Position numbers and translations under genes: made by a program. From an uncultured Anaerolineae bacterium (GTDB taxonomy: Bacteria; Chloroflexota; Anaerolineae; Anaerolineales; Villigracilaceae), in NCBI GenBank assembly GCA_903910795.1, contig CAIWAX010000334.1, positions 1-35,013 of the forward strand: a stretch of 35,013 nt of DNA, written 5' to 3'. This document shows positions 23,404 through 34,625 of the stretch, piece after piece; position 1 is the first letter of the stretch; each line of letters starts with the position of its first letter. A model generated the notes under the pieces. The model saw nothing but the letters and a program-made list of their open reading frames with translations. It made no database searches and was not told the DNA's origin.

Positions 23404-23721
23404 ATGAAATACGTTATTTTGGAAAGCGGCGGCAAACAATATAAAGCTGTCGAAGGCGGCATGATCGAAGTCGATCTGCTGCATGTACAACCGGGCACGA
23501 GCATTGATATTACAGATGTGCTTTTGCTGGTAAACGGTGATGCAATCACCGTCGGCGCGCCAGTTGTCGCGGGCGCTTCAGTTAAGGCTACAGTTGTTGA
23601 GCATTTCAAGGGCGAAAAGACCTACAATTTTCACTACAAGCCCAAGAAACGCATTCGCCAGAAGACAGGTCATCGCCAGTCCTATACCCGTCTTGCTGTT
23701 GAACAAATTGTTGAAGGGTAA
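23404..23721 (+). CDS. rplU: Large-subunit ribosomal protein bL21
   Basis: A 105-aa protein that binds 23S rRNA in the 50S subunit. The sequence is canonical: MKYVILESGGKQYKAVEGG at the front, the VLLLVNGDAITVGAPVV centre, and YNFHYKPKKRIRQKTGHRQSYTRL with the family's basic RNA-binding end. The length is normal. The ATG follows AGGAGAAAGGATCT. It is the first gene of rplU-rpmA-rpmE under a consensus promoter. A 12-bp gap separates it from rpmA. Confidence 0.98.
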   Translation: MKYVILESGGKQYKAVEGGMIEVDLLHVQPGTSIDITDVLLLVNGDAITVGAPVVAGASVKATVVEHFKGEKTYNFHYKPKKRIRQKTGHRQSYTRLAVEQIVEG

Positions 23722-23733
23722 GAGAGGTCCACT

Positions 23734-24006
23734 ATGGCTCATAAAAAAGGTGGCGGTTCCAGCCGCAATGGTCGTGATAGCAATGCCCAACGCCTGGGCG
23801 TGAAGAAGTATGCTGGTGAAGTAGTCCTTTCCGGCAATATCCTTATTCGCCAGCGTGGAACACACATCCAGCCTGGTATGAACGTGGGCGCCGGTACAGA
23901 TGACACCCTGTTCGCTACGATTGATGGTGTGGTTGTTTTTGATGTTGTGCATGGTCGCAAGCGTGTAAATGTCCTCCCGCCCGAGGCTTTTGCGGCGGCA
24001 GAGTAA
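23734..24006 (+). CDS. rpmA: Large-subunit ribosomal protein bL27
   Basis: A 90-aa protein whose flexible N-terminus reaches the peptidyl-transferase centre. [17 protein letters not shown] begins directly after the initiator Met, so there is no Firmicutes-type cleaved leader. [23 protein letters not shown] and the GRKRVNV end are canonical. It follows rplU by 12 bp with GAGAGGT as ribosome-binding site, the nearly universal L21-L27 order. rpmE follows after 17 bp. Confidence 0.98.
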
Positions 24007-24023: not shown

Positions 24024-24503
24024 ATGAAACCAAAGATCCATCCAACTTTTTACACGGACGCCCAGGTTGTCTGCGCATCCTGTGGTTCCAAGTGGACGAC
24101 AGGCTCCACTCGCAAGTCCATCCATGTCGAAGTTTGCTCGCATTGCCACCCGTTTTTCTCGGGCGAGCAGGCCCGTATGCTGGACGTGGAAGGCCAGGTT
24201 GACCGCTTTTACAAGAAGCTCCAGGTTCGCCAGGAATATGTTGAAGCTCAAAAGGTTAAGGAAGAAGCCCGCAAGGCTCCTGCCAAACCGGTTACCGAGC
24301 TTGATCTTGGCATCCGCGTGACCGGTGCGCTTGAAAAAGCTGGCATTACCACTATTGCCCAGTTGATGTCCAAACTTGGCGAAGGCGATGACGCCGCTCT
24401 GGCGATTGAAGGTTTTGGTCGCAAGGCACTGATCGACAGCAAAAAGAAGATTCGGGCTCTGGGTTATGACCTTCCAGAAGTCTCCAGCGAAGCCGCTGCT
24501 TAA
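24024..24503 (+). CDS. rpmE: Ribosomal protein bL31 fused to an RNA-polymerase alpha-CTD-like domain
   Basis: Residues 1-70 are a zinc-type bL31: MKPKIHPTFYTDAQVVC, cysteines C17-x2-C20 and C38-x2-C41 in CSHCHPFFSGEQ, and GQVDRFYKK. bL31 normally ends there at 65-75 aa. This one continues to 159. A charged helical linker (71-90) leads into TELDLGIRVTGALEKAGITT and EGFGRKALIDSKKKIRALGY (91-148). That segment reads like the helix-hairpin-helix C-terminal domain of the RNA polymerase alpha subunit (compare ELDLSVRSYNCLKRAGINT). The arginine matching alpha Arg265 (here Arg98) and the Gly and Lys of the second DNA-contact loop are kept, while the Asn at 268 and Ser at 299 are not. The fused domain might bind rRNA, DNA or polymerase partners. 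A terminator follows 52 bp later. Confidence 0.9.
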   Translation: MKPKIHPTFYTDAQVVCASCGSKWTTGSTRKSIHVEVCSHCHPFFSGEQARMLDVEGQVDRFYKKLQVRQEYVEAQKVKEEARKAPAKPVTELDLGIRVTGALEKAGITTIAQLMSKLGEGDDAALAIEGFGRKALIDSKKKIRALGYDLPEVSSEAAA

Positions 24504-24608: not shown

Positions 24609-25178
24609 ATGAAGCATTTGCACGGTTCGATTGAGGTTGTATGCGGGTCGATGTTCAGCGGCAAAACGGATGAACTTATCCGTCGTATGCGGCGTGCTGT
24701 TATCGCGCGTCAAAAAGTGCAGGTATTCAAGCCCGCTGTCGATGTGCGCTATGCCGCCGAAAAGGTTACCTCACATGCTGGCGCGGATTTTGATGCCATT
24801 CCTGTTGAGAAGGCAGAAAACATATTCGAAAAACTGGATGCCGATACCACGGTTGTTGGCGTTGACGAGGCGCAATTCTTCGATGACGGCATCCTTGAGG
24901 TAACCAGCCGTTTGGCCGAGCGCGGCATCCGTGTTCTGGTGGCTGGTTTGGATCAGGATTTTCGCGGCGAACCTTTTGGCCCCATGCCTATGTTGATGGC
25001 TAAGGCTGAAAGGGTGGATAAACTGCAGGCGATTTGCATGGTTTGCGGTGAATCAGCCAGCCGCACACAACGGCTTGTAAATGGTACCCCGGCACGTTAC
25101 GATGACCCGGTTGTTATTGTGGGCGCATCTGAGCTTTACGAAGCACGCTGCCGTCAGCACCACGAAGTCCCCCGATAA
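24609..25178 (+). CDS. tdk: Thymidine kinase
   Basis: It phosphorylates thymidine to dTMP with ATP in the pyrimidine salvage pathway. The 189-aa product is a type II (bacterial/human cytosolic-like) enzyme: P-loop [14 protein letters not shown], the [10 protein letters not shown] motif with the catalytic Glu, [13 protein letters not shown], and the zinc-binding lasso with [15 protein letters not shown] and a final CRQHH. The length is normal. The ATG follows GGGAGCGATT. It lies between the ribosomal-protein terminator and two hypoxanthine phosphoribosyltransferase genes in a nucleotide-salvage group. Confidence 0.96.
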
Positions 25179-25232: not shown

Positions 25233-25793
25233 ATGCAAGATTATCATGATATTTTGGCCGAAGTTCTCATAGATGAAAAAACTCTACAGGCGCGTGTTAA
25301 AGAGTTGGCAGATGAGATCAATCGGGATTATGCGGGCCAGCAAATCCTGCTGATCTGTATTTTGCGCGGTGCGCTGCCCTTTATGGTGGATCTGATGCGG
25401 CACCTAAGCGTACTCAACGCGATTGATTGCATGGCAATCTCATCCTACGGTTCGGGCGCGAGAGAAACCACCGGGAACGTTCGCATGAATCTCGATTTGC
25501 AAACCAACATTCAGGGCAAACACGTGATTTTAGTGGAAGACATTGTGGATAGCGGTCATACTGTCGCACATGTGCTTGAATTACTTCGCACCCGCAAACC
25601 CAAAACACTCAAAGTGTGTGCGCTCCTCGATAAAGAATCCCGCCGCGAGGTTGTTGTACCGATTGATTATCGCGGATTTTCAATACCGAATAAATTTGTA
25701 TTTGGTTACGGTCTTGACCTTGACGAGTTTTACCGCAACCTGCCCTTTGTGGGTGTGGTTGACCTGGACCGGTATGTCAGCAATGAGAAATAA
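25233..25793 (+). CDS. hpt: Hypoxanthine phosphoribosyltransferase, copy 1
   Basis: It converts hypoxanthine (and often guanine) plus PRPP to IMP or GMP in purine salvage. The 186-aa product has the N-terminal DEVL-like EVLIDEKTL, the CILRGALPFMVDLMRHL loop, SSYGSGARETTGNVR (flexible active-site loop) and the PRPP signature VEDIVDSGHT. The end carries GYGLDLDEFYRNLPFVGVV, the family's base-recognition tail. The ATG follows AGGAG at 5-nt spacing. In the PRPP motif His stands where the sister copy has Arg. It is followed 32 bp later by a closely related second gene. Confidence 0.95.
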   Translation: MQDYHDILAEVLIDEKTLQARVKELADEINRDYAGQQILLICILRGALPFMVDLMRHLSVLNAIDCMAISSYGSGARETTGNVRMNLDLQTNIQGKHVILVEDIVDSGHTVAHVLELLRTRKPKTLKVCALLDKESRREVVVPIDYRGFSIPNKFVFGYGLDLDEFYRNLPFVGVVDLDRYVSNEK

Positions 25794-25825: not shown

Positions 25826-26389
25826 ATGATGCAAGATTACACTGAGTTTATGGATGAAGTGCTCGTTGATCAGCAAGCCATTGACAAGCGGGTGCGCGAA
25901 TTGGGCGAGCAGATCAGCCGGGATTATGCCGGCGAGGATTTAGTGGTTGTCTGCCTGTTACGTGGCGGCCTTACTTTTACGGCGGACCTTACTCGCCACC
26001 TCAGCCTGACGCATGAGCTTGATTGCATGTCGCTTTCTTCCTATGGAACCGGCCATTATGCTTCCAGTGGAAATGTACGTGTCAACCTGGACTTGATGAC
26101 CAACATCGAAGGTCGTAATGTTTTATTGGTTGAAGATATAGTGGACTCCGGCCGGACTCTGGCGCATGTGTTAATGATGCTAAAAACACGCGAACCGAAG
26201 AGTGTTAAAGTATGTGTGCTGCTTGATAAAAAAATGCGCCGCGAAGTGCCGGTGGATGTCGAATATGTCGGTTTTGACGTACCGGATAAATATATATTTG
26301 GTTATGGTATTGATATTGATGAACATTTCCGCCACCTGCCTTTTATTGCAAGCGCCGATCTTGCCAGGTACAAAAATACGGCTGATTGA
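25826..26389 (+). CDS. Hypoxanthine phosphoribosyltransferase, copy 2
   Basis: A 187-aa paralogue of the preceding gene and, by eye, more than half identical. Shared blocks include SRDYAG (NRDYAG), LLRGG, DCMSLSSYGTG, GNVRVNLDL, VEDIVDSGRT, VCVLLDKKMRREV and FGYGIDIDEHFRHLPFI. All family motifs are intact, so both copies should be active. Differences cluster in the hood and flexible loop (ARETT versus HYASS), which could alter base preference. The start is ATGATG at 25826 with AAGAGG upstream. Its stop lies 5 bp before the next gene's ATG. Confidence 0.93.
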   Translation: MMQDYTEFMDEVLVDQQAIDKRVRELGEQISRDYAGEDLVVVCLLRGGLTFTADLTRHLSLTHELDCMSLSSYGTGHYASSGNVRVNLDLMTNIEGRNVLLVEDIVDSGRTLAHVLMMLKTREPKSVKVCVLLDKKMRREVPVDVEYVGFDVPDKYIFGYGIDIDEHFRHLPFIASADLARYKNTAD

Positions 26390-34454: not shown

Positions 34455-34625
34455 ATAAACCCTCGTTAGGCCAGGCGGCTGCAAGGTATACAAGCCATTG
34501 CCCTGAAACGTCCAAAGACGCGAAAGGGTAGACCAGGCGATGTCGGATTAAGGCATCGCTCAAGGTGGCTGGGAGATAAATTCCTTACGACGCGCAGTGC
34601 CAAAGCTAAACCAGGAGGTGGATCT
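34455..34625 (+). ncRNA. M-box (ykoK leader) magnesium riboswitch
   Basis: The conserved landmarks of the M-box aptamer occur in the right order: CCTCGTTAGG (34461-34470), GCCCTGAAACGTCCAAAGACGC with closing AAAGGGT, a variable arm (GCGATGTCGGATTAAGGCATCGC), and GTGCCAAAGCT with a final CCAGGAGGTGG. The M-box binds several Mg2+ ions and, in known cases, folds so that a downstream terminator forms when magnesium is plentiful. It normally controls magnesium-transporter genes (mgtE, corA, mgtA). Here a consensus promoter precedes it and an intrinsic terminator follows it. The AGGAGG at its 3' end can pair with CCTCCT of the terminator, the expected anti-terminator switch. The controlled gene is not visible in the window. 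Confidence 0.9.

Follow-up and report, generated by a model that had tools for sequence, protein, structure and literature searches.

A bL31 ribosomal protein of Anaerolineae ending in a domain derived from the RNA polymerase alpha subunit

Introduction

Why would a ribosomal protein end in a piece of RNA polymerase? The question is raised by a stretch of 35,013 nucleotides from an uncultured Anaerolineae bacterium (here called the window), in which a sequence-only reading had noticed a zinc-type bL31 continuing into something like the C-terminal domain of the RNA polymerase alpha subunit (alpha-CTD). The stretch that caught the attention of that reading, 24294–24473, corresponds to residues 91–150 of an open reading frame at 24024–24503 on the forward strand. 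In a literature search that covered few subscription journals, we found no paper on a bL31 with an alpha-CTD and none on a Chloroflexi ribosomal protein fused to such a domain; for bL31 fusions in Chloroflexi, a general review was all that came up. The features of the locus are as follows.

23404–23721 (+), rplU (bL21), upstream; in three relatives (G105, G197 and G172) the alpha-CTD is on bL21 instead
23734–24006 (+), rpmA (bL27), ending 17 nt upstream of bL31
24024–24503 (+), bL31–alpha-CTD fusion, 159 aa plus stop, ATG start
24024–24233 (+), zinc-type bL31 domain, residues 1–70, with Cys17, Cys20, Cys38 and Cys41 (PF01197, E 2e-23)
24234–24293 (+), charged linker, residues 71–90, under relaxed constraint (dN/dS 0.26)
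24294–24467 (+), alpha-CTD-derived domain, residues 91–148, identified by Pfam, PDB sequence and fold matches
24315–24317 (+), Arg98, equivalent to alpha Arg265; Arg in 49 of 50 Anaerolineales tails
24324–24326 (+), Gly101 at the position of alpha Asn268, Asn being lost; Asn in 3 of 50 tails against 100% of RpoA in the class
24411–24431 (+), helix-hairpin-helix (HhH) hairpin GFGRKAL, residues 130–136; Gly132 equals Gly296 and Lys134 equals Lys298
24420–24458 (+), helix 4, residues 133–145, with family-specific basic K140, K141 and R144; almost every tail is basic at these positions, where RpoA varies
24609–25178 (+), tdk (thymidine kinase), downstream of bL31

Results

The fusion protein and its gene

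The N-terminal part of the protein is an ordinary bL31. Residues 1–66 match Ribosomal_L31 with 82.8 bits against a cut-off of 27, TIGR00105 is matched with 75 bits (cut-off 38.35), and all four zinc-ligand cysteines are kept. It is the single bL31 of the genome. Beyond it, Pfam RNA_pol_A_CTD (PF03118) matches residues 79–142 (E 2.7e-7; 30.7 bits versus a cut-off of 23.8), and the NCBIfam alpha-subunit models hit the same part of the tail. We are close to certain that the sole bL31 of this genome ends, after a short charged linker, in a domain that descends from an alpha-CTD of RNA polymerase in its own phylum.

The gene order rplU-rpmA-bL31-tdk is found in further families of the class Anaerolineae too. 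Elsewhere in the window, two neighbouring and similar phosphoribosyltransferase-like frames (25233–25793 and 25826–26389, both +; hypoxanthine type by eye) probably represent a tandem duplication, and an M-box (magnesium) riboswitch lies close to the window end (34455–34623, +; 118 bits, Rfam).

The tail is an RpoA-type domain

The tail might be a generic helix-hairpin-helix domain with no relation to RpoA, and 18 of the 51 bL31 tails tested do match HHH_5 weakly in addition. All 51, however, match RNA_pol_A_CTD. When the PDB was searched with a profile of the tail, the first 53 rows were RNA polymerase alpha chains (best E 1.8e-14), which are shorter than the profile they aligned to. AlphaFold2 predicted the tail with the alpha-CTD helix order (residues 90–93, 97–105, 111–119, 122–126 and 133–145) at moderate confidence, with a pLDDT of 74 for the tail and 72 for the full fusion; the C-terminal helix of bL31 is predicted at 55–84, extending into the linker to about residue 84. 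Each of the 50 Foldseek matches listed for the tail model was an alpha chain of RNA polymerase or a complex of that enzyme; normalised by target length, the highest TM score was 0.89, and E-values were only ~5e-3 because the domain is short. Neither a missing HhH fold nor a similarity limited to general HhH domains was found, and the proposal of a bL31 fused to an alpha-CTD-like domain was borne out.

A 3-residue insertion that neither E. coli nor B. subtilis has is present in 129/129 bL31 tails and in 21/21 RpoA sequences of the class. The tail therefore most likely originated, as judged from this shared insertion, in an alpha-CTD of Chloroflexota itself. With profile searches, comparison to sequences of solved structures and fold searches all leading to RNA polymerase alpha, a generic HhH origin is ruled out for practical purposes, and we regard it as extremely improbable.

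The tail is fixed in Anaerolineales and under purifying selection

We examined 101 Anaerolineales genomes, counting the window's own. bL31 was detected in 97 of them, always with the tail, two of these fusions being cut by a contig end; in the remaining four, rpoA alone was matched. Among 120 genomes sampled from the class, the tail was found in 18 from outside the order, which belong to nine families. The named relatives among the matches listed are Anaerolineae of the Chloroflexota, for example Leptolinea, Pelolinea and Promineifilum bins. For the sampled genomes of other Chloroflexota classes, no tail was seen among the matches listed. The check on how widely bL31 homologues share the tail thus returned an order-wide trait with nine further families. 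In the bL31 of five fetched relatives (L044, L045, L046, L048 and L063), the zinc cysteines are gone and the alpha-CTD tail is retained.

Comparing genomes within the genus gave a mean dN/dS of 0.063 in the bL31 core and 0.060 in the alpha-CTD, with 0.26 in the linker between them. Purifying selection acts on the tail no less strongly than on the ribosomal core. An assembly or frame error is ruled out by this selection together with the full fusion in 97/101 genomes. A chance C-terminal extension is likewise ruled out: the fetched tail-less relatives in the class have bL31 ends that differ and are mostly of charged low complexity (L050–L053).

The surface of the domain has changed relative to RpoA

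Asn268 and the other alpha-CTD residues considered here contact DNA in E. coli. The sequence-only reading held that the residue equal to alpha Arg265 and the Gly and Lys of the second contact loop are kept, and this is so: R98, G132 and K134 occupy the positions of Arg265, Gly296 and Lys298 in the window protein, and the three are retained in 49/50, 49/50 and 46/50 Anaerolineales tails, respectively. Other positions have moved away from RpoA. Asn268 is kept in 3 of the 50 tails and Asn294 is replaced by Gly in 48, while both are Asn in 100% of the class RpoA sampled; the Glu302 position is mostly Asp. At the positions of Asn268, Asn294, Ser299 and Glu302 the window protein has G101, G130, A135 and D138, so that none of these four is kept.

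Charge has shifted as well. Averaged over related sequences, which are hence not independent samples, helix 1 carries a net charge of +3.0 in RpoA and of +0.7 in the tails, and the hairpin and helix 4 together go from +0.3 to +4.2, with +5 for the window protein; the net charge of the whole tail domain is only about zero. An intact DNA-binding surface is ruled out by these residues, with Asn268 and Asn294 gone and the charge relocated. Of the idea that the tail is a nucleic-acid- and activator-binding module, the part that rests on Arg265, Gly296 and Lys298 stands, and the part that would need Asn268, Asn294 and the basic charge of helix 1 does not.

The same domain occurs on other proteins of relatives

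In other families of the class, the alpha-CTD was also found at the C-terminus of bL21 (rplU), in three genomes (L201 in G172, L202 in G197 and L203 in G105; Pfam-confirmed for L201 and L203). The bL31 genes fetched from these three genomes lie two genes downstream of the bL21 fusion and have no tail. Further carriers are bS16 (rpsP), likewise in other families, with a C-terminal alpha-CTD in L204, L205 and L206 (Pfam-confirmed) and in L207 by profile, and NusA, with one or two C-terminal copies in several Anaerolineae families (L195–L200, L212 and L038:2119-4137 (-)). Two putative bS16–alpha-CTD frames, in G212:C220 (282 aa) and G136:C49 (329 aa), were read from match positions alone. The NusA of the window genome (L194) has only a degenerate HhH/alpha-CTD domain below the Pfam threshold.

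One genome, G185, has the alpha-CTD on both NusA and bL31. Its bL31 tail shares 78–81% identity with the two nearby NusA copies and groups in the tree with the NusA domains of that family. The remaining bL31 tails fall mostly into one supported clade (97/85); finer branching is unsure because the alignment has few columns. Forcing all bL31 tails into one clade was 18.5 log units worse and not formally rejected by the AU test (p 0.06), and one bL31-tail clade was fully acceptable without G185 (p 0.48). A single origin for all bL31 fusions appears doubtful, and the domain was apparently acquired more than once within the class on bL31, bL21, bS16 and NusA.

Besides the bL31 tail, PF03118 matches the true rpoA of the window genome and, on contig C467, a protein with a von Willebrand A domain (L002:925-3174 (-)), in which the RpoA motif is largely intact. 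In relatives, three large proteins (L208, L209 and L210) contain several alpha-CTD repeats followed by a stretch resembling the sigma-region-4 helix-turn-helix. Two NCBIfam models, NF011498 (beta' subunit, model positions 1317–1379) and NF033442 (BREX PglW), match these alpha-CTDs weakly, a hint that the domain may also exist in beta' and PglW proteins elsewhere.

The von Willebrand A and sigma-region-4-like proteins are what would be expected if a promiscuous alpha-CTD had simply accreted onto bL31, keeping its fold and playing a minor or passive part such as stabilising bL31. We consider this improbable, as the constraint on the tail equals that on the ribosomal core, the surface residues R98, K140 and R144 are near-invariant, and no loss of the tail occurred among the 97 Anaerolineales genomes.

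Discussion

The role that we favour, tentatively, is that of a ribosome-tethered HhH module that may grip the RNA backbone as an extra contact near the intersubunit bridge. The N-terminal part of bL31 contacts uL5 and its C-terminal part contacts uS13 of the 30S head (PMC10931766; PMC7550191), and the tail should therefore hang near the head. Because the genome has no other bL31, we infer that the fusion protein bridges the central protuberance of the 50S subunit and the 30S head, which would put the domain on every ribosome, in one copy beside the 30S head. For the bL31 clade, the shifted charge pattern would point to RNA backbone as the likeliest ligand. The grip would be provided by the retained hairpin G-F-G-R-K, Arg98 and the new basic helix 4 (K140, K141 and R144), and the target could be rRNA around the 30S head or an mRNA passing by. 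A tail of this kind would no longer be optimised for minor-groove DNA. On bL21, bS16 and NusA of sister lineages, the module has diverged less. Both the whole-domain net charge of about zero and the moderate AlphaFold confidence count against the RNA-gripping role.

The proteins bL21 and bS16 sit at other places of the ribosome than bL31. Finding the same domain on them in relatives suits a tether that works from any position better than it suits a single rRNA contact, as different ribosomal proteins are expected to carry it if proximity alone matters. The tail might then dock on the C-terminal HhH domains of NusA, on an alpha-CTD, on activators or on DNA, and so hold the ribosome near the transcribing polymerase. 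The same module was given to NusA, bL31, bL21 and bS16 within one class and to NusA and bL31 together in G185, and the tail retains Arg265, Gly296 and Lys298. The alpha-CTD of E. coli contacts the AR2 domain of NusA (PMC6614801), and with this contact and the recurrence on NusA and ribosomal proteins, tethering stays a strong rival. Nevertheless, we judge it rather unlikely, since the main bL31 clade lacks the Asn268, Asn294 and basic helix 1 of RpoA and the NusA of this genome has only its degenerate, sub-threshold HhH domain. Its extension to the whole class, in which bL31, bL21, bS16 and NusA would have been repeatedly fitted with alpha-CTDs that physically tie ribosomes to the nucleoid or to transcription complexes by a route unlike NusG–uS10, also seems to us unlikely.

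A role away from the ribosome has a precedent in the bL31 of gamma-proteobacteria, an autogenous translational repressor (PMC10931766). Free bL31–alpha-CTD might similarly bind DNA or mRNA and repress its own operon, as the sequence-only reading had suggested. With bL31 starting 17 nt after rpmA, autoregulation through a leader directly upstream is unlikely; an Rfam search of the window gave no leader at the rplU-rpmA-bL31 operon, and key DNA-contacting residues are lost. Off-ribosome regulation is in our view very unlikely.

With this fusion, an RNA polymerase domain would sit on the ribosome of a large and environmentally common bacterial group, not as a stray fusion but fixed there and kept by selection. 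Parts of the translation machinery appear to have repeatedly gained a piece of the transcription machinery in these Chloroflexota, and the recurrence on bL21, bS16 and NusA in relatives would offer natural replicates for the question of ribosome–polymerase tethering.

Comparison with known systems

The window protein resembles zinc-type bL31 (bL31A, rpmE; PF01197) in its full domain, four zinc-type cysteines, sole copy and gene position near rplU-rpmA. It differs in being ~90 residues longer, an addition that includes a folded alpha-CTD; the bL31 chains that match it best in the PDB have 63–79 aa. Chloroplast and Mycoplasma bL31 are also longer than the bacterial norm (94–144 aa in PDB chloroplast chains; 97 aa in 7ood_x, which we take to be Mycoplasma bL31), but no alpha-CTD match was seen in their extensions.

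With the CTD of RpoA (PF03118), the tail shares the sequence family, the five-helix topology, the equivalents of Arg265, Gly296 and Lys298 and the 3-residue insertion of the phylum. Unlike that domain, it is not on RpoA, has lost Asn268 and Asn294, and bears its basic charge on the hairpin and helix 4.

AR1 and AR2 of E. coli NusA are small domains of the HhH fold. The NusA domains of Anaerolineae are like them in being small C-terminal HhH domains on a transcription factor, and AR2 is the one that binds the alpha-CTD (PMC6614801); they are unlike AR1 and AR2 in that, by profile, they are themselves RNA_pol_A_CTD.
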